A stretch of 64,000 bases of DNA from NCBI GenBank assembly GCA_900319075.1, contig ONMZ01000001.1, positions 97,261 through 161,260 on the forward strand, read 5' to 3'. Of this stretch, positions 13,560 to 36,826 are shown piece by piece (position 1 is the first letter of the stretch; each line of letters opens with the position of its first letter). Under the pieces are notes generated by a model. It did no database searches. It was not told the DNA's origin and worked only from the letters and a program-made list of their open reading frames with translations. This stretch comes from an uncultured Eubacteriales bacterium (GTDB lineage Bacteria; Bacillota; Clostridia; Oscillospirales; Ruminococcaceae). Position numbers and translations under genes: made by a program.

Positions 13560-15560
13560 TCACACGATACGCCTGAATTGTTTTTCGATATCTCTTTTAG
13601 AGAGCTTGATAAAAACAGGTCTGCCGTGGGGACAGTATCTTATATCGTCGTTTTCATAAACATTTTCTATCAAAGCCTGAAGTTCTATTATACTTGACTT
13701 GTCATGGGCTTTAATAGCCGCCTTACAGGCAAGAGAATGATAAAGGTCATCGAAAAGCTCGATCTGAGGATCCATCTTATGAGCTATAAGATTTCTTGCA
13801 AGCTCGCTAACAGCCTCGGTAGGGTTTTCATCCCCAAGGATCACCGGCACACCCTTGACCGCCACAGTCGGAGCCACATCGGGTTCTATTTCAAAGCCAA
13901 GCTGCCTTGCTTTTTCAACATTTTGTGACAAAGCATCATATTCATCATAGGCAAGGACCACCATTACAGGTTCAAGAAGCATCTGTGGATCCAGCTGGTT
14001 TTTGTCATTTTTGATCTTTTCAAAGATATATCTTTCATGTGCAGCGTGCTTGTCCATAAGGAGCATATCGTCACCGCACTGGGCTACCACAAAGGTGCGG
14101 AACAGTTCACCGATCACCACAGGTTTGGGTTTTTCCGCAGTTTCAGCGGGCACAACGGGAATAACAGGCGCTTTTTTCTGCAGATCGCCGCTTCCAATAA
14201 ACCTGAACGATCCGGGATCATCCTCCTGAGGGAGGGGTATCTCGCTTACCAATTTATTGATCTGCTCAACAGTGATCTTCTGCTGTTTCTCAAAAGGCTC
14301 ATCGGCTTTGTAAGAATTGTGCGTCAGTGGAGCTGTGCTTTCACCGGAGGTGTTATATTCGGAGGATGCACAAGAGGTGTTTTCCTGCACAGTATGTTCC
14401 TTTGGAACATTATCCACCGGCGGATCTTCATAATTTACATTGCTCCGTGGCACCGGCTCGGTTTGTACAGGGTCTGCAAAGCGCATCTGAACTCCCGGAT
14501 CGGATCTTACGCTATAAAGCTGTTTATCTGTAAAATGCCGTTTGCTTTCAAAAACTATCTCGTTTGGTTTATCATTTTTTAAAAGAGAATCCTTGATCGC
14601 ATAAAACACAGCCTCATGCATAAGGCCTTCATTTGAAAATCTAACCTGGATCTTAGTCGGATGAACATTGACATCAACTGTATCCGGCGGTATCTGAAGA
14701 TATAGCACACAGGCAGGAAACTTTCCGACCATGATCTGATTACGGTATGCATCCTCAAGGGCACAGGAGCAGGCAACAGACTTTATATATCTGTGATTTA
14801 CGAAAAAATTCTGGAATTTTCTATTCGTTTTGGATTTCAGAGGTCTAACCGTATATCCGCTTATATGGATACCTTTCCAGTTATAATCCACAGGTATAAG
14901 CGACGATGCAAACTCCCGACCGTATACGGAATAAATAGCTGAGTAAACCTTACTGTCGCCGGGAGATATAAATTCAACTTTATTATCTCTTATAAACTTA
15001 AAAGAAATCTCCGGATGCGAAAGGGTAAGCTTAGTCACTATCTCTGCAACATAATTGCCCTCCGTAGAGTCCTTACGCATGAATTTAAGTCTTGCGGGAA
15101 CGTTATAAAACAGGTCCTTCACGGTAAAAGTCGTACCATCGGGACACCCGCTTTGTTCCATAAGCTTTTGCTCCCCGCCCTGTATTTCATAATGGGTTCC
15201 AAACTCATCATCGGGACGCTTTGTAAGCACGCTTACTTTTGAAACGGCACAGACCGAGGCAAGGGCTTCCCCTCTGAAACCCAGGGTCAATATGCTTTCA
15301 AGATCATTTTTAGAGGAGATCTTGCTTGTTGCATGACGAAGAAAAGCGGTGGGAAGATCCTGTGCAGAGATACCTTTGCCGTTATCGGTAACACGAAGAT
15401 ATGTTCTTCCCCCGTTTTTTATCTCTATAGTTATGTTTGTTGCACCTGCATCGACTGCATTTTCAAGCAGTTCTTTTGCCACAGAAGAAGGTCTGTCGAT
15501 GACCTCACCGGCAGCAATAAGTTCAGATATCTCTTTAGTCAGTACTTTTATTTCGGACAT
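13560..15560 (-). CDS. mutL: DNA mismatch repair endonuclease MutL
   Basis: 666 residues. The GHKL ATPase motifs are present in the first 120 residues: ELLENAVDAGA, DNGKGI and TLGFRGEALAS. The C-terminal domain has the endonuclease motif DKHAAHERYIFE, a form of DQHA(x)2E(x)4E, plus ACKAAIKAH and CPHGRP. This is therefore a nicking-type MutL, as expected in organisms without MutH. A low-complexity linker (about 330-440) joins the halves. It lies 31 bases after mutS and before miaA. Confidence 0.96.
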   Translation of the reverse strand: MSEIKVLTKEISELIAAGEVIDRPSSVAKELLENAVDAGATNITIEIKNGGRTYLRVTDNGKGISAQDLPTAFLRHATSKISSKNDLESILTLGFRGEALASVCAVSKVSVLTKRPDDEFGTHYEIQGGEQKLMEQSGCPDGTTFTVKDLFYNVPARLKFMRKDSTEGNYVAEIVTKLTLSHPEISFKFIRDNKVEFISPGDSKVYSAIYSVYGREFASSLIPVDYNWKGIHISGYTVRPLKSKTNRKFQNFFVNHRYIKSVACSCALEDAYRNQIMVGKFPACVLYLQIPPDTVDVNVHPTKIQVRFSNEGLMHEAVFYAIKDSLLKNDKPNEIVFESKRHFTDKQLYSVRSDPGVQMRFADPVQTEPVPRSNVNYEDPPVDNVPKEHTVQENTSCASSEYNTSGESTAPLTHNSYKADEPFEKQQKITVEQINKLVSEIPLPQEDDPGSFRFIGSGDLQKKAPVIPVVPAETAEKPKPVVIGELFRTFVVAQCGDDMLLMDKHAAHERYIFEKIKNDKNQLDPQMLLEPVMVVLAYDEYDALSQNVEKARQLGFEIEPDVAPTVAVKGVPVILGDENPTEAVSELARNLIAHKMDPQIELFDDLYHSLACKAAIKAHDKSSIIELQALIENVYENDDIRYCPHGRPVFIKLSKRDIEKQFRRIV

Positions 15561-15591: not shown

Positions 15592-18207
15592 TTAAAGATA
15601 GGTCAAAAGCTCTTTAACAAAGCTTCTTAATTCTGTGTCAGTCATTTCATCAACGTTAGTTTCTCTGAGTCTGTCAAGGACGATGGTATCACTTATCTTA
15701 TCAAAGGACACCTGAGCTGATTCTGCATTTTCAACAGCAAGGTGTGCTTTTCTGTTTTCCTCTTCAAGCTCTGCAAGAAGCGACTTCGCCCTTGATATTA
15801 TCTTATCGGGCAGACCGGCAAGTTTGGCAACTTCGATACCGTAGCTCTCATCAACTCCGCCCGGGACTATCTTTCTCAGGAACTTTATAGTATCCCCCTG
15901 GCGCTTGACCGCAACGGAAAAGTTGCGTACACCAACAAGCTCCTTTTCCAGGCTGATAAGTTCATGGTAATGTGTTGCAAACAAAGTTTTGCATCCCAAA
16001 GAGCGTGATGTGGAAATATACTCCGAGACTGCTCTGGCTATGGAAATACCGTCAAAAGTTGATGTACCTCGTCCCACCTCGTCAAGGATAACAAGGCTGT
16101 TTTTCGTAGCGTGTTTGACTATATCCGCAACCTCTGCCATTTCAACCATGAATGTGGATTGTCCGGCAGTCAGGTCATCTGATGCACCGATCCTTGTAAA
16201 GATCTGGTCGACAACAGATATCTTGGCATAATCCGCAGGCACGAAGCAGCCGATCTGCGCCATTAAGGTTATAAGGGCTACCTGACGCATATATGTAGAC
16301 TTACCGGACATATTCGGACCGGTAATAACAGCCATTCTGTTGCTTGTAAGATCAAGATATGTATTGTTCGGGACAAATACCTCATCTTTCTGCATCAGTT
16401 CCACCACAGGGTGTCTGCCGTTTTTAATATCTATGACACCGTCGATTGCGATCTCGGGCTTTGTATAATTATTACTGATCGCCACGCCTGCAAAGGAGCA
16501 AAGGACATCGATCTGTGCAACCGCTGAGGCAGTTTCCTGCACGAGCCTGAGCTGGGTGGCGATAAAATCTCTGATCTCGGCAAATATCTCCTGCTCAACG
16601 GTTATTATTTTGTCACTTGCACCAAGGATAGTATTTTCCGCAACTTTCAGTTCTTCAGTAATAAACCTTTCACAGTTGGCAAGTGTCTGTTTACGGATGT
16701 ATGTCTGAGGGACAAGATCGTAAAATGACTTTGTTACCTCGATATAATAACCGAAAACACGATTATATCCTATCTTCAGGTTTTTTATGCCTGTTTTTTC
16801 CTTTTCTCTTTCACAGATATCGTCAATGATATCCTTTCCGCCGGAGCGGATATTTCTCAGCCCGTCAAGCTGTTCGTTAAATCCGTCTTTTATAACTCCG
16901 CCGTCTTTTACATTCACAGGCGGCTCGTCAACTATCGCATTCTCCACAAGATTGGAAACGGCGTCAAGGGTAGATATCTTACTTTCACACTCACAGATAA
17001 GCTTTGAATCAAATTGCCTCAGAAGATCCTTGAGCACCGGCAGTTTCAGGGCAGTAAGAGACAACGATTTAAGGTCTCTCGGAGATGCAGTTTTGTACAT
17101 TACTCTTGTCATAAGTCTTTCAAGGTCATAAACACCGCTGAGGACTTCCTTGATCTCGGAAAGCATCACAGGGTTCTCAACAAGCTGCTCAACAGCATTA
17201 AGACGTGACGTGATTTTGGCAGGGTTTATCAAAGGCTGTTCCAGCCATGATTTTAGCATACGCTTACCCATAGAGGTTTTTGTAGAGTCAATGACCCACA
17301 AAAGAGATCCTTTTTTCTCTTTATTGCGAAGAGTCTCGGTAAGTTCAAGATTTCTTCTTGCTGTAAAACCGATGGTCATAACAGGATCTACATCATGCTT
17401 AATAATCTTTGAAAATCTGCCTACAAGTGCTTTTTGCGTTTGGTATATATAGGCGAACAGCCCGCAAACCGCTTTTGCACTCACCTTCTGGGGATCTATT
17501 CCGAGATCCTCAAGGCTATTTACAGAAAACTGTTTCAATACATCCTCGGTATGGTATTTTACCGAAAAGTCCATTTCTTCAAGAAGCTGTACGGTGGTTT
17601 TAAGTTTTTCTCTAATAAACCTTGAAAGCTCCTTATTAGACAAGAAAGCATCGTTAATAAGAACCTCGGACGGTTCAAATCTTGAAAGCTCGTTAATTGC
17701 TTCGGCGGTCATCTGTTTTCCGGAAAATTCAAAAAGATGGACCTCGCCGGTGGAGATGTCGGCAAAGCATATTGAGCTTTGCTTATCGATGGTATAAAAA
17801 GAGCATATATAATTATTCGATGTCTCGTCAAGCATACTGCTCTCTATAAGCGTGCCGGGAGTAACAACCCTTATGACCTCTCTGGGAACGATACCTTTGC
17901 ACTTGGACGGGTCCATAGTCTGCTCGCAAATGGCGACCATAAAGCCTTTTTCGATAAGCTTTTTAATGTACATATCGCAGGCATGGTGCGGCACTCCGCA
18001 CATAGGTGCACGTTCACTCAGTCCGCAATCTCTTCCGGTAAGGGTGAGTTCAAGCTCTCTTGACGCAGTAATAGCATCATCAAAAAACATTTCATAAAAA
18101 TCACCCAGTCTATAAAACAGAATATGATTTCTATAATTCTTTTTAACTGCAAAATACTGCTGCATCATGGGAGACAGCTTTGATTCATCAACATCTTTAA
18201 AAAGCAT
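15592..18207 (-). CDS. mutS: DNA mismatch repair protein MutS
   Basis: 871 residues, normal length. The mismatch-reading motif is in GDFYEMFFDDA (about 36-46). Further on are the connector, lever and clamp domains. The ATPase has Walker A GPNMSGKSTYMRQ and Walker B/signature VILDEVGRGTSTFDG, then ATHYHEL. MutS dimers find mismatches and recruit MutL, encoded next. The C-terminal region after residue 800 is a helix-turn-helix dimerisation segment. No disrupted motif was seen. It is preceded by the YlbF-family gene. Confidence 0.97.
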   Translation of the reverse strand: MLFKDVDESKLSPMMQQYFAVKKNYRNHILFYRLGDFYEMFFDDAITASRELELTLTGRDCGLSERAPMCGVPHHACDMYIKKLIEKGFMVAICEQTMDPSKCKGIVPREVIRVVTPGTLIESSMLDETSNNYICSFYTIDKQSSICFADISTGEVHLFEFSGKQMTAEAINELSRFEPSEVLINDAFLSNKELSRFIREKLKTTVQLLEEMDFSVKYHTEDVLKQFSVNSLEDLGIDPQKVSAKAVCGLFAYIYQTQKALVGRFSKIIKHDVDPVMTIGFTARRNLELTETLRNKEKKGSLLWVIDSTKTSMGKRMLKSWLEQPLINPAKITSRLNAVEQLVENPVMLSEIKEVLSGVYDLERLMTRVMYKTASPRDLKSLSLTALKLPVLKDLLRQFDSKLICECESKISTLDAVSNLVENAIVDEPPVNVKDGGVIKDGFNEQLDGLRNIRSGGKDIIDDICEREKEKTGIKNLKIGYNRVFGYYIEVTKSFYDLVPQTYIRKQTLANCERFITEELKVAENTILGASDKIITVEQEIFAEIRDFIATQLRLVQETASAVAQIDVLCSFAGVAISNNYTKPEIAIDGVIDIKNGRHPVVELMQKDEVFVPNNTYLDLTSNRMAVITGPNMSGKSTYMRQVALITLMAQIGCFVPADYAKISVVDQIFTRIGASDDLTAGQSTFMVEMAEVADIVKHATKNSLVILDEVGRGTSTFDGISIARAVSEYISTSRSLGCKTLFATHYHELISLEKELVGVRNFSVAVKRQGDTIKFLRKIVPGGVDESYGIEVAKLAGLPDKIISRAKSLLAELEEENRKAHLAVENAESAQVSFDKISDTIVLDRLRETNVDEMTDTELRSFVKELLTYL

Positions 18208-29143: not shown

Positions 29144-32100
29144 TCAGAACAAAGACAGCTGATTTTGTTTGGGAAGATCTCCAAAAGCGCCGTTTCTGTC
29201 AAGTGTTTCAACCACAGATCTTGGAACTCCGCTTTGTATCTGGAATTCTTCCACAGAAATAAAGCCCTTATCTCTTGATTTTTCATATATAAGTTTGGCA
29301 GCGTTTTCGCCTACTCCGTTAAGGGAACAGAACGGAAGCCTTATCTTGCCATCCTCGATCTGATATATAAACGAATGAGATTTATAAATATCCACCGGAA
29401 GGAACTCATAGCCTCTTGACAACATCTCATTGGCAATAAGAAGCATATCACAAACGTCTTCGTCCTTCTTTGATTTTTCGCTTTTGGGCATTGCCTCGTA
29501 TTCCTGTATTTTTGACCTCAGGAAGAACTTTCCTTTCATTACAGTTTCAGCGTCAAAATCCTCTCCCCTGACGGTAAAAATCGAGGCGTAAAAAGTAAGC
29601 GGATCGTGCACCTTGAACCAGCAGAGTCTTATAGCTGCAATAACATACGCTGCCGCATGGGCTTTAGGGAACATATACTTTATCTTCAAGCAGCTGTCGA
29701 TATACCACTGGGGTACATCATGTGCTCTCATTTCATTTTGCATATCTTCGGTAAGAAGTGCGGGAGCTTTACCTTTACGGGTTATCTCCATAATTTTGAA
29801 AGAAAGGCTTTTATCAACCCCGTGGTGGATAAGATATGTCATAATACTGTCTCTGGTTCCGATAACATTAGAAATATCGCAGATATTATTTGCTATAAGA
29901 TCCTTAGCATTACCAAGCCATACATCTGTTCCGTGTGACAGACCGGAAATCTGGAGCAGATCGGAAAAATTCTTTGGTTTTGCATCCATAAGCATCTGAC
30001 AAACAAATTTAGTACCCATTTCCGGTATTGCAAGGGTTCCGGTACTGAACATTATATCTTCACGTGTAACTCCCAGAGCCTCAGGTGAAGTAAAAAGGCT
30101 GTATACATCCGGATCAGACATTGGGATCTTTGTGATATCCTTTCCGCTGAACTCCTCAAGATACTTATAAAGCGTAGGCACATCGTGACCAAGCTCATCA
30201 AGTTTAAGGATAGTATCATGCAGTGAATGGAAATCAAAGTGCGTCGTTACCATATCAGAATCCATTTTTTCGGCAGGATGCTGAACAGGCGTAAAATCGT
30301 AAACCTCATAATCACTTGGAATAACGACCATTCCGCCTGGATGCTGGGAAGTTGTTTTCTTTATGCCGCAGCAGCCATTAGCAAGTCGTTCTTTCTCAGG
30401 TTCAGAAACTGTCCTTCCACGCTCTTCAAGATACTTTAATACATATCCGTAAGCATTTTTATCCTGGATAGCACTTATAGTTCCTGCTTTAAACACATGA
30501 TCCTCACCAAAAAGCTCCTCGGTATACTTATGTGCTCTGGACTGGAATGCTCCGGAGAAATTAAGGTCGATATCCGGAGCTTTATCTCCGTGAAACCCAA
30601 GGAATGTTTCAAAGGGTATATCGTGGCCGTCACGGTTAAGCTCGCATCCGCATTTAGGACATTTTTTCGGTGGAAGATCAAAGCCCGAACCCACAGATCC
30701 ATCGGTAATAAATTCACTATAACGGCATTGGGGACATACATAGTGCGGTTCAAGGGGATTAACCTCGGAAATACCCGACATAGACGCAACAAAAGATGAG
30801 CCTACCGAACCACGTGAACCCACCTGATATCCGTTTTGGTTTGAATACGCAACAAGCTTCTGAGAGATCATGTACAGCACGGCAAAGCCATGCTCGATGA
30901 TCGAGTCAAGCTCTCTTTCCAATCTGTTGAAAACGATTGGAGGGATATGCCCCTCATAATACTTGCTGATATGTTTTACCTGTTCCTCGTCAAGGTCTTT
31001 TTCAGCCGGAACGATTATACTATCAACGTCACAGTCGCCAAAAATACTCAGGCATTTTTTCCAGCATATTACCTGAAGTTCATACACTGCGCCTTCGATA
31101 AACGGCGTATATGTACCATTCGGAAAAGCTTTAAGGTCCGGATCAACAAGATCGGCAACACGGTTGGTATTGGCAACAACGACCTCAAAGGCTTTTTCTT
31201 CACCAAGGTATGAAAACTCTTCAAGCATTTCATCGGTGGTTTTAAAATACAAAGGTGCCTGGTTGTCAGCGTCAGAAAATCCCTGCCCTGCCATGATAAT
31301 GGCTCTGAACTGTGCATCGCTCTTATCAAGAAAATGCACATCACCTGTCGCACAAACAGGCAAGCCAAGCTCATCTGCAAGCTTACAGATAGTTCTGTTG
31401 TAATCTCTAAGCTGCTCATAGGTGGTAACTGTTCCGTTTCTGAGCATAAACTCATTGTTGCCTATCGGCTGTATTTCCAGGTAGTCGTAAAAGGATGCGA
31501 TCTGTTTAAGCTTTTCCCATGATGCACCTTCCACCATAGCACGAAAAACCTCGCCCTGTTCACAGGCAGAACCAATGATCAATCCCTCTCGGTTTTTTAC
31601 CAGCTGTGATTTCGGTATCCTCGGACGGCGTTTATAATATTTAAGGTTAGAATCCGAGATAAGTCTGTAAAGATTTTTAAGTCCGGTATTATTACGCACA
31701 AGTATTATCTGGTGATAACGCCTTTGGTTTCTTATGTTTTCCTCGCCCTCGTCACCAAGCAGACTGTTTATCATATCAACGCTTATAATAAGCAAAGGAT
31801 ACGTCTCTATCAGCTTATTACACAGTTTGACAAACACTTTTGCGTTCAGATCTGCACCTTTTGGCTCTGTTTTGGCAATATCGGAAAAAAAACTGTTGCT
31901 CAGCAGGTTTTCAAGCTTTGATCCTGTATCATCGAGCATGAGTCTGCACATTGAAGACAGGTCGATAAAAGAGTATTCAAACCCGATCTCACAACGCTCA
32001 AGCATTTTATCAAGATTTTTTTGCATTAAATATCCGTCGTCAAAGACCAAAACAGGGTCTTTCCCGCAAAAGGCAACAAAGTTTTCTGCAAACGTTTTTT

Positions 32101-33550
32101 CGTCAGGCAGCTCTGTAAGACTTAAAGACACACTATCCTGTACACAAAGCTCTGAGATCTTCTCGGCACTTACAGCGGTAATATCTCCGCTTTCGGAAAA
32201 TGATATGGAAACTGCAATAAACTCGTCGGTCAGTTCCCTTTTATCACAGCCTGAATAAACGTTCGCATCGTTATTTACCTCGTAGTTCTCAACACCATAG
32301 ATGATCTTGAAATCCGCATTTTCCTTACGAATTTTTGAGCAGGCACCGCCTGCATCGGAAAACGCCTGTACAACGCCGTGGTCGGTAATAGCTACAGCTT
32401 TATGGCCCCAGAAATTAGCTCTGTTCACAAGGTTAGCTGCCGGCGTCATGGCATCCATCTGGGACATATTTGTATGCAGATGCAGCTCAACACGTTTTTT
32501 TTGTGCAGTATCTTTTTTTAACTCACGCTTGACCAGCAGGATAGATTCGGGGATAAGGTAGAAAGAATGATCAAAATCGTCCTCTTCCATTATACCCGCA
32601 ACCAATATGGTGCTGCCATTTTTCAATTTTTCAAGCATAGCTTCAAGGACCTGCTTTGTAAGAGGGTTGAACTTATTGGCTCTCAAAGCACCTACCATTT
32701 TGATCGAAAGTGAGGATGTATAATCAGTAAAGAAAAGCTTTGCGATAAGCATACCTCTCTTTGTTTCTTTAGTTTCTATTTTAAATATATCTCCCCACAC
32801 GGTAACAGCGCCCTGAAAATCACTGGGGATATTCTTCATTTCGCTGACATTGGCGTTGGGAGAGATGGGTGACCCTTTAAGAACGACAGCATTTTCACAC
32901 AAAAGATGCAGTCTTGTAAAGTCAACGCTGCAGGTGCGAAACTCGATCTTTTCCTCGTCATTCTTCTTTAAAGGCTTATTGACAGGTGCAGTATTTTCAG
33001 CAGAAGAACGCTGCGGGATCTCAGGAGGAGGAAGCTTTGCAAGAAACTCCTGCTGTTCCCGCTGGATCTTCTCACTGTCATTTTCCAAAAGTCCGGTAAA
33101 TTCCACCCTATATCTTACGCTAAACAATTCCTCAATAAGACCAGACAGCTCCCTTGACGCACCATTATCTTTTAAAAGTCTGTATCCGCCATGCTTTAGT
33201 TCGATAGTTACAACGCTTTCATTTATCTTTGCCACAGCGTCATAGAAAAATCCGTTTACAAGAGAAAATCTGTCTTTGAAAAATTTGAATATTTCCGGGA
33301 AATAATCCTCAGTTAGCATATCCGGTGAAAACTTGCAGCTAACTGTGAATTTTCTAACGGAAAGCTTGTCCTTCATAAAGGAACAGAAATCATATATCTG
33401 GTCGTATGTAACAAGTTGGGAAAATGAAACTGTAACACACAAGGCTGTACGTTCACTATCCGTTGTTATTTTTATTATTTTTCCGCTGCTCATTTCAGAC
33501 GGAAGATCATATTGAAAACTCGAGAAAAAATCTCCGAAATTGTTGTTCAT
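29144..33550 (-). CDS. polC: DNA polymerase III alpha subunit, PolC type, with degenerate exonuclease region
   Basis: 1468 residues. It is the replicative polymerase of low-GC Gram-positives. An N-terminal domain (about 1-190) and OB fold (about 240-340) precede the PHP domain, HLHTNMSQMDA at 357 and AITDHG near 388. The polymerase core has VGSRGSVGSSFVA, four-Cys zinc region CPQCRYSEF/CPKCG, PDIDLNFSG and QHPGGMVV, all intact. The C-terminus QLSLF is a clamp-binding motif. The 3'-5' exonuclease that normally interrupts the PHP domain (about 440-595) is present in outline. However, its FDxETTG motif reads IAVSISFSESG and its NASFD motif reads FDDGYLM. Proofreading is probably lost in this protein. 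It is last in the der operon. Confidence 0.95.
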   Translation of the reverse strand: MNNNFGDFFSSFQYDLPSEMSSGKIIKITTDSERTALCVTVSFSQLVTYDQIYDFCSFMKDKLSVRKFTVSCKFSPDMLTEDYFPEIFKFFKDRFSLVNGFFYDAVAKINESVVTIELKHGGYRLLKDNGASRELSGLIEELFSVRYRVEFTGLLENDSEKIQREQQEFLAKLPPPEIPQRSSAENTAPVNKPLKKNDEEKIEFRTCSVDFTRLHLLCENAVVLKGSPISPNANVSEMKNIPSDFQGAVTVWGDIFKIETKETKRGMLIAKLFFTDYTSSLSIKMVGALRANKFNPLTKQVLEAMLEKLKNGSTILVAGIMEEDDFDHSFYLIPESILLVKRELKKDTAQKKRVELHLHTNMSQMDAMTPAANLVNRANFWGHKAVAITDHGVVQAFSDAGGACSKIRKENADFKIIYGVENYEVNNDANVYSGCDKRELTDEFIAVSISFSESGDITAVSAEKISELCVQDSVSLSLTELPDEKTFAENFVAFCGKDPVLVFDDGYLMQKNLDKMLERCEIGFEYSFIDLSSMCRLMLDDTGSKLENLLSNSFFSDIAKTEPKGADLNAKVFVKLCNKLIETYPLLIISVDMINSLLGDEGEENIRNQRRYHQIILVRNNTGLKNLYRLISDSNLKYYKRRPRIPKSQLVKNREGLIIGSACEQGEVFRAMVEGASWEKLKQIASFYDYLEIQPIGNNEFMLRNGTVTTYEQLRDYNRTICKLADELGLPVCATGDVHFLDKSDAQFRAIIMAGQGFSDADNQAPLYFKTTDEMLEEFSYLGEEKAFEVVVANTNRVADLVDPDLKAFPNGTYTPFIEGAVYELQVICWKKCLSIFGDCDVDSIIVPAEKDLDEEQVKHISKYYEGHIPPIVFNRLERELDSIIEHGFAVLYMISQKLVAYSNQNGYQVGSRGSVGSSFVASMSGISEVNPLEPHYVCPQCRYSEFITDGSVGSGFDLPPKKCPKCGCELNRDGHDIPFETFLGFHGDKAPDIDLNFSGAFQSRAHKYTEELFGEDHVFKAGTISAIQDKNAYGYVLKYLEERGRTVSEPEKERLANGCCGIKKTTSQHPGGMVVIPSDYEVYDFTPVQHPAEKMDSDMVTTHFDFHSLHDTILKLDELGHDVPTLYKYLEEFSGKDITKIPMSDPDVYSLFTSPEALGVTREDIMFSTGTLAIPEMGTKFVCQMLMDAKPKNFSDLLQISGLSHGTDVWLGNAKDLIANNICDISNVIGTRDSIMTYLIHHGVDKSLSFKIMEITRKGKAPALLTEDMQNEMRAHDVPQWYIDSCLKIKYMFPKAHAAAYVIAAIRLCWFKVHDPLTFYASIFTVRGEDFDAETVMKGKFFLRSKIQEYEAMPKSEKSKKDEDVCDMLLIANEMLSRGYEFLPVDIYKSHSFIYQIEDGKIRLPFCSLNGVGENAAKLIYEKSRDKGFISVEEFQIQSGVPRSVVETLDRNGAFGDLPKQNQLSLF

Positions 33551-33561
33551 AATAATTATCC

Positions 33562-34599
33562 TTAAAGCCTGTTAATTTCTTCTATAAGAGCCTTTAAAGC
33601 CTCTTGCTCAGGCAATTTACAGAGCTGTTTTCCATTTTTGAACAGCACAGCGCACTTATCTCCGCCTGCTATTCCAACATCTGCTTCGCCTGCTTCACCT
33701 ATCCCGTTGACTACACATCCCATTACTGCAACGGTAATATCTTTATTTATATCCTTTGTAAGAGCCTCGACTTTTTTTGCAAGTCCGATAAGGTCAATCT
33801 TTGTCCTTCCGCAGGTCGGACAGGAAACGATCCTTACTCCGCTCCCTTTTCCAATGGCTTTTAAAATATCCTTTGCTGCATAGATCTCTTTGACCGGCTC
33901 ATCTGTAAGTGAAACTCTTATTGTTTCTCCTATACCATCAAGAAGCAGTGAACCGATGCCGATAGATGACTTGATAAGCCCCATTCGCTCTGTTCCGGCT
34001 TCGGTAACACCAAGGTGCAAAGGATAATCACACTTTTGTGCAAGCAGTCTGTATCCCTTTACCATAGTATCCACATTTGATGACTTGATGGAAATAACTA
34101 TATTGTCAAAATCGCAGTCTTCAAGGATCTTCACATGACCCAAAGCGCTTTCCACCAAAGCTTCTGCACAGGGTGAACCATACTTTGCAAGGATATTCTT
34201 TTCAAGGGAACCTCCGTTTACGCCTATCCTTATGGGCAAATTTCGCTGTGTGCATACTTTTACAACTTCTCTGACACGGGAAATATCTCCTATATTGCCC
34301 GGATTTATTCTTATTGCATCGACACCTGCCCGGGCAGATGCTATTGCCAGCTTATAGTCAAAGTGGATATCAGCAACCAAAGGCATTGATACTTTTTCCT
34401 TTATAGCACCGATAAGCTTAACAGCATTTAGATCGGGTATCGCTGCTCTGATTATCTCACAGCCTGCCTTTTCAAGTTCAATTGCCTGTTTTACGGAGCC
34501 ATCAATATCATCAGATGGGACGTTCAGCATAGATTGAATATATATCTTTTTACCGTCAAGGGTAATATCTCCAACTTTTACAGCCTTACAGGTTCTCAT
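33562..34599 (-). CDS. ispG: 4-hydroxy-3-methylbut-2-en-1-yl diphosphate synthase
   Basis: 345 residues. It reduces MEcPP to HMBPP in the MEP isoprenoid pathway, using a [4Fe-4S] cluster. The cluster cysteines are in the SCPTCGR and VMGCVVNGIGEA motifs. Bacterial short form, with VADIHFDY and RINPGNIG in the barrel. It lies 12 bases from polC and 20 from rseP. dxr, two genes upstream, makes an earlier intermediate of the same pathway. Confidence 0.96.
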   Translation of the reverse strand: MRTCKAVKVGDITLDGKKIYIQSMLNVPSDDIDGSVKQAIELEKAGCEIIRAAIPDLNAVKLIGAIKEKVSMPLVADIHFDYKLAIASARAGVDAIRINPGNIGDISRVREVVKVCTQRNLPIRIGVNGGSLEKNILAKYGSPCAEALVESALGHVKILEDCDFDNIVISIKSSNVDTMVKGYRLLAQKCDYPLHLGVTEAGTERMGLIKSSIGIGSLLLDGIGETIRVSLTDEPVKEIYAAKDILKAIGKGSGVRIVSCPTCGRTKIDLIGLAKKVEALTKDINKDITVAVMGCVVNGIGEAGEADVGIAGGDKCAVLFKNGKQLCKLPEQEALKALIEEINRL

Positions 34600-34618: not shown

Positions 34619-35671
34619 TCAGAATAATTTTATTATATCGCTAACAGTTACAATCGCCATCAATAACAAAAGGGCGATCAATCCTATAAAATGCACCATT
34701 CCCTCGTGTTCGGGCTTTACAGGTTTTCGTCTTATACCCTCGATTATAAGGAAAACAAGCCTTCCTCCGTCAAGTGCCGGCAGAGGCAGGAGGTTGAAAA
34801 TACCAATATTTATCGTGATGAACGCTGAAATAGACAGCATTGTATGGATAAGACTTGACCAGTCTATTTTACCCGTTTCTTCATCTGTTTCGGAATCGAC
34901 AACATCACCTATCGTATCTACTATTCCAACAGGTCCGCTAAGATCACGAAGCGAATACTTGCCGGTTATAATGTCCTTCAGAGATATAAAAATAAGTCTT
35001 GCGTCAGATGCTCCCGTTTTAATGGTTTGTGAAAGGACAGTTCCCACATTCAATGCAACAGGTTTCACTTTAAAATCTATATGCATGGTTTTTTCATTGA
35101 CTGCAAACTTTACATCTTTAAGCTCTTTTATTTCTCCGTCCCTTTCCACAACCATATCAAAAACTCCGTCTTTATCGTTTCTGAACTGGAAAGACATATC
35201 TGCTGTTGTAAAAATACGCATACCGTTGATCTTGACAATCCTGTCACCAAGCTCAAGACCGGTTGCATGGGAAGATGCACCATCTTCAAAATAAGATATG
35301 GTCGTTGAAGCATACGGGCCGCTGGTTGCAGTATTTATCAGCAGCAAGACAAAGCCGAGGATAAAATTCATCACTACTCCGGCGATCACTATCAGGATCC
35401 TGCGCCACACTTTCTTTTTACAAAAAGCGTTGGAATCATCGCTGGAGCCGTCCTCACCCTCCATAGCGCAGTATCCTCCAAAGGGAATGATACGAAGCGC
35501 AAACAATGTATCTCCCTTTTTCTTTTTGAATATTGCCGGTCCCATTCCGATAGCAAACTCATTTACCTTGACCTTATTCCACCTTGCGACGATAAAATGT
35601 CCGAACTCGTGTATAACTATTATTATTTCAAACATCAGCACCGCAAAGAGTATTGAACCCAAAGTTCTCAT
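34619..35671 (-). CDS. rseP: RIP metalloprotease, RseP/site-2 protease family
   Basis: 350 residues with at least four membrane segments. The zinc motif HEFGH is near residue 22 in the first helix. One PDZ domain sits in the middle (GLELGDRIVKINGMRI). The third ligand region is NLLPLPALDGGRLVF near residue 290. Such proteases cut substrates within the membrane, often anti-sigma factors or signal peptides. The membrane partner of the ECF sigma factor at 2.8 kb is a conceivable substrate, without evidence. It lies between dxr and ispG, as in many bacteria. Confidence 0.95.
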   Translation of the reverse strand: MRTLGSILFAVLMFEIIIVIHEFGHFIVARWNKVKVNEFAIGMGPAIFKKKKGDTLFALRIIPFGGYCAMEGEDGSSDDSNAFCKKKVWRRILIVIAGVVMNFILGFVLLLINTATSGPYASTTISYFEDGASSHATGLELGDRIVKINGMRIFTTADMSFQFRNDKDGVFDMVVERDGEIKELKDVKFAVNEKTMHIDFKVKPVALNVGTVLSQTIKTGASDARLIFISLKDIITGKYSLRDLSGPVGIVDTIGDVVDSETDEETGKIDWSSLIHTMLSISAFITINIGIFNLLPLPALDGGRLVFLIIEGIRRKPVKPEHEGMVHFIGLIALLLLMAIVTVSDIIKLF

Positions 35672-35674
35672 AAA

Positions 35675-36826
35675 TTATTTTTCCCTTTCAATTATCAGCT
35701 TTCTCACATATTCTCTGGCTGTGTTATCAGCCTCAAGAACATCATCCACACAAGTAATATCTTTTCCGTCTATATTTTCAAGAGCTTCAGTAACAAGCTC
35801 ACCAATTTCTAAAAACTTTATTTTCCCGTCAAGGAAAGCTGCAACCGCAACCTCGTTTGCACCATTAACTATTGCCGGCTTCGTACCGCCTTGGGTTATG
35901 GCTTTTATGCACGCCGTGAGGCAATCAAAGGTTTCATAATCCGGCTTATCAAAGCTAAGTGTACCATAATCAGTAAGCGACAAATGCTTTGTCGGGCAAT
36001 CGACCCTTTCGGGGTATAAAAGTGCATACTGGATCGGTATTTTCATATCCGGCACACCCAATTGTGCTATAACCGAGTTATCATTAAACTCAACTGCCGA
36101 ATGTACCACGCTTTCCCTTTGGACAACTATTTCGATCTGTTCGGGTTTAAGATCAAAAAGCCAGATGGCCTCAATAAACTCCAGGCCTTTGTTCATAAGC
36201 GTTGCTGAATCAATAGTGATCTTTCTTCCCATTGACCAATTCGGATGGGCAAGAGCCTGTTGTACACCAACGTTTCTAAGATCAGCCTTTGTTTTCTTGT
36301 AAAAAGGTCCCCCCGAGGCAGTCAGGATAATGCTTTTCAGCTGCTCCTTCTTATTTCCCTGAAGGCATTGGAAGATGGCAGAATGCTCACTGTCAACAGG
36401 ATATATTTTCACGCCTTTTTCCTTCGCTCTGTTAATAACAAGCTTTCCGCCTGCCACAAGAGTTTCCTTATTTGCAAGCGCAATATCTGTGCCATGTTCA
36501 ATTGCAGTCAGCGTAGGAATAAGACCTACCATGCCCACAACGCTGTTGAGCATTATATCAACACCGTCCATAGAAGCTATGGCTTTCAGGCCATCCATTC
36601 CGGTCAACACGGTAACATCGCTGTCAAGGAGCTTTTTAAGCTCATCAAGCTTTTGCTCACAGTATATGCATACAGTTCTTACCTTATGCTCATTGGCCTG
36701 CTGAGCAAGCTTCTCAACGTTGGAATAAGCTGCAAGTGCAGCGATCTTCAGACCATGCTTATCACAAACCTCTATCGCCTGAGTTCCTATCGATCCGGTT
36801 GAGCCGATTATAGAAATTGTTTTCAT
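35675..36826 (-). CDS. dxr: 1-deoxy-D-xylulose 5-phosphate reductoisomerase
   Basis: 383 residues. It converts DXP to MEP with NADPH, the committed MEP pathway step. The Rossmann motif IGSTGSIGTQA is at the N-terminus; LANKETLVAGG, PVDSEHSAIFQCLQG and LTASGGPF carry substrate and metal residues. Full length. It starts 65 bases after cdsA and precedes rseP by 3 bases. Together with ispG, ispF and uppS it gives most of the isoprenoid route seen in this window. Confidence 0.97.
   Translation of the reverse strand: MKTISIIGSTGSIGTQAIEVCDKHGLKIAALAAYSNVEKLAQQANEHKVRTVCIYCEQKLDELKKLLDSDVTVLTGMDGLKAIASMDGVDIMLNSVVGMVGLIPTLTAIEHGTDIALANKETLVAGGKLVINRAKEKGVKIYPVDSEHSAIFQCLQGNKKEQLKSIILTASGGPFYKKTKADLRNVGVQQALAHPNWSMGRKITIDSATLMNKGLEFIEAIWLFDLKPEQIEIVVQRESVVHSAVEFNDNSVIAQLGVPDMKIPIQYALLYPERVDCPTKHLSLTDYGTLSFDKPDYETFDCLTACIKAITQGGTKPAIVNGANEVAVAAFLDGKIKFLEIGELVTEALENIDGKDITCVDDVLEADNTAREYVRKLIIEREK

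Follow-up and report, generated by a model that had tools for sequence, protein, structure and literature searches.

Results

A PolC polymerase with a vestigial exonuclease

The 64,000-nucleotide stretch analysed here (positions 97,261 to 161,260 of contig ONMZ01000001.1, assembly GCA_900319075.1; hereafter the window) comes from an uncultured Eubacteriales bacterium of the Ruminococcaceae, and encodes a PolC-type DNA polymerase III alpha subunit on its minus strand (polC, 29144..33550). The 1468 aa product of this single uninterrupted open reading frame exceeds the curated cut-offs of both TIGR01405 (1272 bits against 1043) and NF001688 (1417 bits against 873). The Pfam PHP, polymerase, finger and HhH domains are over their cut-offs, and two PolC N-terminal Pfam domains match slightly under their own. 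The Pfam PHP match spans residues 355-688 with an insertion inside it, such that the domain is split, as the PolC type demands. Its N-terminal part (residues 350-430; 32261..32503, minus) holds the ligands H, H, D, H and E, and its C-terminal part with the following stretch (residues 610-840; 31031..31723, minus) the ligands H, C, D and H. The polymerase core occupies residues 850-1350 (29501..31003, minus), with its zinc-finger cysteines present when read by eye from the translation, and the protein ends in QLSLF, which we take to be a clamp motif.

An earlier note on this DNA had claimed that the PHP, polymerase and zinc residues of this PolC are intact, which agrees with the above, and that its proofreading exonuclease is degenerate but in the normal place, at about residues 440-595 (31766-32233). 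The latter claim was also borne out, as residues 441-592 (31775..32230, minus) are a vestigial DnaQ/DEDDh exonuclease insertion in which all five catalytic residues are replaced. In a multiple alignment with relatives, the positions of the D, E, D, H and D residues are taken by S448 and S450 in the former ExoI motif (FDxETTG; 32201..32209, minus), M509 in the former ExoII (32024..32026, minus), and K560 and G565 in the former ExoIII (31856..31873, minus). Hence the note was right that ExoI lacks both acidic ligands, that methionine stands at the ExoII aspartate and that the ExoIII histidine is replaced; the ExoIII aspartate has gone as well. The window PolC thus keeps none of the five residues (SSMKG) and each of its six sisters at most one, whereas all five are present in 26/26 intact rows of the same alignment, drawn from the genus and other genera. 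A profile alignment with hhalign pairs the same five window positions with the DEDDh columns. An intact D-E-D-D set elsewhere in the segment was looked for by alignment, and none was found. A simpler pairwise local alignment, which reads SSDP- at the window positions, was set aside in favour of the multiple alignment, with which hhalign agrees; it likewise contains no intact DEDDh set.

The segment is nevertheless an exonuclease by descent. It is collinear with the PolC exonuclease in the alignment with genus relatives, although it is reduced to 152 aa from the 179 of intact relatives. ExoI and ExoII are 51 residues apart in the window and 48-54 apart across the seven dead forms, compared to 75 in intact sequences, making the dead forms 21-27 residues shorter in this interval. 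A profile built from the dead segments of all seven genomes matched the intact exonuclease profile over 155/155 columns (E 1.5e-34; reversed control 0.064), and since the segment profile alone aligns over this length, the homology is not carried by the flanks. When the same profile was compared with the PDB, the sole match up to E 5 was the PolC exonuclease 2p1j (E 2.7e-5). With Pfam RNase_T, the window PolC gave no hit at E<=1, in a range where the filters of HMMER discard the bulk of matches with E above 0.1. Scanned across the whole genome, RNase_T picked up two proteins above its cut-off, plus one weak site, and all three lie outside PolC. The absent DEDDh residues do not exclude membership of the PolC type, as many true PolCs are without the whole insertion; in the window, 152 residues remain between the PHP halves. 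Judged by the known chemistry of DEDD enzymes, the loss of this catalytic activity in the window PolC is near certain.

A single clade carries the dead form

The genus sample comprised 29 genomes, 27 of them with a PolC match. The dead form was found in seven (the window genome, G153, G162, G166, G167, G168 and G174), each with exactly one PolC match, while the other 20 genus PolCs all keep DEDHD (20/20); three fragments without the exonuclease region (L063, L066 and L067) were dropped from this count. G153 is taken to be Ruminococcus sp. FC2018, placed by NCBI in Ruminococcus, Oscillospiraceae, because the PolC rows of the FC2018 record (L004) and of G153 (L040) are identical. The seven dead forms group as one clade in a PolC core tree, with an ultrafast bootstrap (UFBoot) of 100, and hence a single loss explains them. 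The clade is diverse, with its PolCs 72-91% identical to that of the window. An error of assembly, a frameshift or a pseudogene can be regarded as refuted, given that the dead form recurs in seven genomes, including that of a named strain (L004/G153), with no internal stops and a strongly constrained polymerase core. This conservation across the clade upholds the earlier note's view that polC is not a pseudogene.

The dead segment evolves rapidly, but under constraint

Branch lengths were summed for each part of PolC with the topology held fixed, and the total within the clade was expressed as a ratio to the total within the intact group. The ratio was 2.10 for the exonuclease, against 0.68 for the polymerase core (Pol), 0.46 for HhH, 0.41 for OB, 0.40 for the N-terminal domain (NTD) and 0.38 for PHP (0.57 for PHP-N and 0.32 for PHP-C). 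The exonuclease segment is therefore specifically accelerated in the clade, by a factor of about 3.3 over Pol (range 2.4-5.0 in 25 bootstraps). Pairwise ratios had hinted at extra constraint on the PHP domain of the clade, which was rejected because on the tree its ratio is close to those of OB and NTD.

Despite this acceleration, the ratio of nonsynonymous to synonymous substitution rates (omega) indicates that the dead segment is still under purifying selection, albeit relaxed. Omega for the segment was 0.18 (0.09-0.29) between the window and FC2018 and 0.13 (0.07-0.25) between L041 and L042, compared with 0.058 (0.03-0.10) and 0.048 (0.02-0.10) in two pairs of intact exonucleases; these values come from a counting method with exonuclease dS of 0.75-1.67, making them rough, and their intervals partly overlap. 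Pol omega for the window and FC2018 was 0.016. Conservation was scored in the clade at 85 segment columns conserved in 24 intact sequences, where hydrophobic cells were still hydrophobic in 208/266 cases and polar cells still identical in 71/329. Conserved cells were kept far more often in PHP-N (288/322), PHP-C (839/882) and Pol (1276/1323). The residue pattern and the selection together fit a domain that is dead but probably still folded.

Constraint of this kind could also mean that the segment was kept because it gained a new role, as a lid on the PHP channel or in binding the clamp or a partner. An omega of 0.13-0.18, rather than 1, would fit such a role, as would the cysteine at window residue 535 (alignment column 104), which is invariant in the seven dead forms where intact relatives have a conserved serine; and the PolC exonuclease sits in a loop beside the PHP site (PMC5636811; this and the other papers are cited from excerpts). 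However, the segment is the fastest-evolving part of the clade's PolC and has private deletions, folding constraint alone would suffice, and other PolCs exist without the segment altogether. No clamp-binding motif of the type described for PolA2 was seen by eye in the relic of the seven sequences. A new role seems improbable.

The rates also bear on whether the clade's PolC has forgone proofreading altogether, with mismatch repair and DnaE1 sufficing and the lineage being a mild mutator. The window does encode MutS (15592..18207, minus) and MutL (13560..15560, minus), both over curated cut-offs and both named in the earlier note, and retention of the PHP domain could be structural. Yet the PolC core is not accelerated, its root-to-tip lengths being 0.30-0.37 for clade members and 0.20-0.39 for 13 intact relatives, which is mildly against a strong mutator, although it is a weak test as protein rates are constrained. 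The diversity of the clade is a further point against this explanation, which appears distinctly unlikely.

One further contrast emerged from the pairwise comparisons. Between L046 and L047, dN was 0.20 in the part matching residues 610-840 (PHP) of the window PolC, and only 0.028 in the Pol core; recombination within polC is a possible cause.

Decay and absence of the exonuclease in other lineages

In the family sample, 126/148 genomes matched an intact exonuclease query at 1e-10 anywhere in the genome. Ten family loci that were exceptions or weak matches were read (L027 and nine regions): five are without the insertion (L027, L100, L101, L102 and L108), L106 and L107 are intact, L105 is truncated yet retains an intact ExoIII at its end, and two (L103 and L104) were not classifiable. 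The five insertion-less PolCs span five genera, and in two of these, g18 and g22, a frame of PolC size that does match the exonuclease is also present. In the class sample 331/392 genomes matched the intact query. The follow-up covered 30 genomes, ten of them with weak matches and 20 taken from the 61 that had none, among which were 17 PolCs without the insertion, two with an intact but diverged exonuclease, seven of a family labelled f38, and four genomes that gave no PolC.

The f38 PolCs (L139-L145, from G220, G243, G282, G298, G470, G374 and G500) are 1471-1705 aa long, with a large insertion but no readable DEDDh. This insertion resembles the exonuclease weakly: the alignment made with six of the sequences spans 29 columns at E 9e-4 (reversed control 0.27), and L145 alone gives E 0.013. 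Hence f38 is a tentative third case of a dead exonuclease. In six members the insertion is partly well conserved, around HVADF and FLRRAGYGINIE, which suggests that this stretch has a constraint of its own.

In the phylum sample, PolC was present in 91/119 genomes, with frames that were exonuclease-sized in 35, short in 53 and cut in three. All 35 long PolCs were read, the window included, of which 33 are intact and two dead, the second being G675. The short PolCs (53/91; 1133-1292 aa) are short enough to have no exonuclease, and the 21 that were read (20 and G648) are all without it. This share is far above the 6% of PolC sequences in the 2013 survey that described exonuclease-less PolC (Timinskas et al.; PMC3919608). 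The PolC of G675 (L236/L272) reads VVLALATTG where its intact family mates G579 and G616 read VVVDIETTG, making it a second clear case of a retained but dead exonuclease. The PolC of G648 (L271), from the same genus g415, has no segment and only the short linker PAGEPAPGGPAEGNPAD. Decay and absence therefore occur side by side within one genus, and we infer that decay came before absence.

At the thresholds applied, some genomes lacked any match to PolC, namely G205, G229, G178 and G414, and 28/119 in the phylum sample, nearly all of which are >=95% complete. These are perhaps DnaE-only lineages, or have a diverged PolC.

Candidate substitutes for the lost proofreader

The nine PHP ligands (HHDHEHCDH) are complete in the PolC of 7/7 clade members, fitting the pattern HHDHEH[C/H]DH, and the PHP of DnaE1 is complete in 11/11 genomes read, seven of which are clade members. 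Across the samples, the PHP domain is complete in 57/57 PolCs without a readable DEDDh (seven from the clade, five from the family, 17 from the class, seven from f38 and 21 from the phylum), and in 110/115 PolCs with DEDDh. In each of the five PolCs whose PHP is broken, DEDDh is retained; four of the five have N for D, and L118 is changed at several ligands. These 172 rows are related, may repeat species and are a non-random sample, and their pattern is consistent with an exchange of function without proving it. L118 (G490), with PHP ligands HKDRELLNH and DEDDh intact, is the reverse of the window case within the same class.

The earlier note had held that an external proofreader would matter if the exonuclease were degenerate, and a separate DnaQ-type protein was indeed looked for in the window's own genome, yielding two short stand-alone proteins with DEDDh complete by eye. 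Hence a stand-alone DEDDh exonuclease might proofread in trans, like the epsilon subunit of E. coli, with the FDVETPN proteins (L001 and L002) as candidates. By frame length (178-201 aa), a small DEDDh protein is present in 5/7 clade genomes against 3/22 other genus genomes, the 22 including two (G155 and G173) in which PolC was not matched; this enrichment has a Fisher p of 0.008, not corrected for kinship. However, none was found at E<=0.001 in G167 or G168, each 90% complete and both with the dead form, and equally long proteins are encoded by the intact-PolC relatives G065, G149 and G152. Furthermore, neither protein of the window's genome passes the epsilon cut-off, and no C-terminal clamp-binding motif was seen by eye. 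Proofreading in trans is therefore unlikely, although less so than the two alternatives above.

The small proteins with FDVETPN as their ExoI motif lie at L001:1444-2022 and L002:1441-1956, and are 171-192 aa long. The motif was checked only in L001, L002, L089, L090 and L091. The L002 copy adjoins a LexA-like repressor gene, named from its translation, and its C terminus is unlike the L001 type.

Upstream of polC itself are an ispG-like gene (33562-34599), a membrane metalloprotease-like gene (34619-35671) and a dxr-like gene (35675-36826), all named from their translations rather than from a search.

Discussion

Proofreading sets the mutation rate. The explanation we favour for the window PolC is that its DEDD exonuclease is dead and that proofreading has most likely passed to the PHP domain of the same protein, helped by the PHP of DnaE1 and by mismatch repair. 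Firstly, the PHP and DEDD sites would have been redundant before the loss. Secondly, DEDD catalysis would have been lost by the time of the ancestor shared by a small clade of Ruminococcus. Thirdly, the dead domain persists in the loop of the PHP as a spacer that is shortened, fast-evolving and probably still folded. Fourthly, the PolC PHP, with all nine metal ligands of the mycobacterial DnaE1 zinc PHP exonuclease, would take over proofreading, with the DnaE1 PHP and MutSL assisting. Both the take-over and the exonuclease activity of the PolC PHP are inferred. Most Clostridia have three active proofreaders, namely the PHP in PolC, the PHP in DnaE1 and the DnaQ in PolC (PMC12926913), and hence the loss of one could be tolerated. 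The PolC PHP ranks first as the substitute because it belongs to the very protein that lost the other site and is present in every member of the clade, and because the PHP is a known proofreader in mycobacterial DnaE1 (PMC5636811). The window PolC looks like a replication enzyme caught between shedding one proofreader (DEDD) and leaning on a second, older site (PHP).

Several observations weigh against this explanation. The NTD omega for the window and FC2018 is 0.11 (0.07-0.18), meaning the segment is not the sole loosely held part of the protein. The clade does not stand out in how well its PHP is conserved, with Pol being the odd one among the branch-length ratios. Zero of the 172 PolCs are without both PHP and DEDDh, but this would arise by chance 13% of the time given the margins, and the seven f38 rows among the 57 are tentative. 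The PHP domain is also kept in the 110/115 PolCs that have DEDDh, and may therefore be retained for structural reasons, while a stand-alone DEDDh protein is at hand in five of the seven clade genomes. Nevertheless, take-over by the PHP is the likely outcome. FC2018 and an intact sister species offer a natural comparison for whether the PolC PHP proofreads.

A broader and more tentative possibility, to which we give slightly less than even credence, is that PolC repeatedly reverses its own evolution, the inserted DEDD exonuclease dying, lingering and then being excised, such that proofreading is again left to the PHP. The stages of such a sequence may be represented by the window clade, in which the segment is dead but retained, and by g415, in which it is dead in G675 and excised in G648. 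Catalysis would then be lost first, and the segment excised later.

Known systems each share part of this arrangement. Canonical PolC (Geobacillus 3f2b; 9qpc) has the same domain order, PHP split by an insertion, polymerase core and C-terminal QLSLF, and 9qpc matches the intact exonuclease query. Yet it is the mirror image of the window PolC, since one of its PHP ligands has changed from D to N (GN for GD in both structures), whereas in the window PHP is complete and DEDD dead; with this one ligand changed, Geobacillus PolC has no PHP exonuclease (PMC5636811). The replicative exonuclease of Mycobacterium tuberculosis is the PHP of its DnaE1 (PMC5636811), with a nine-ligand site like that of the window PolC, but that enzyme is of the DnaE1 type, has no insertion and has an activity that was shown directly, while that of the window PHP is presumed. 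Exonuclease-less PolC, which ranges over Clostridia, Negativicutes and one extra Thermotogae copy (PMC3919608), likewise stands beside a DnaE1-kind DnaE, with no DEDD exonuclease and a complete PHP where read; unlike it, the window PolC keeps 152 of the usual 179 segment residues, homologous throughout. PolA2/APEX and Pol I orthologues with an inactive 3'-5' exonuclease also keep a dead exonuclease domain in a DNA polymerase (PMC12926913), but these belong to family A, and the relic of PolA2 contains a clamp motif, whereas the window enzyme is a replicative family C polymerase with no such motif by eye. According to that 2026 survey, it is PHP, not DnaQ, that becomes inactivated in Pol III alpha; the window case is the opposite of this pattern, and its clade a counter-example within the replicative enzyme itself. 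No description of a retained dead exonuclease in PolC or Pol III alpha was found in the excerpted open-licence PubMed Central literature. PolC without an exonuclease is known, and what is apparently new is a dead DnaQ domain retained within Pol III alpha.

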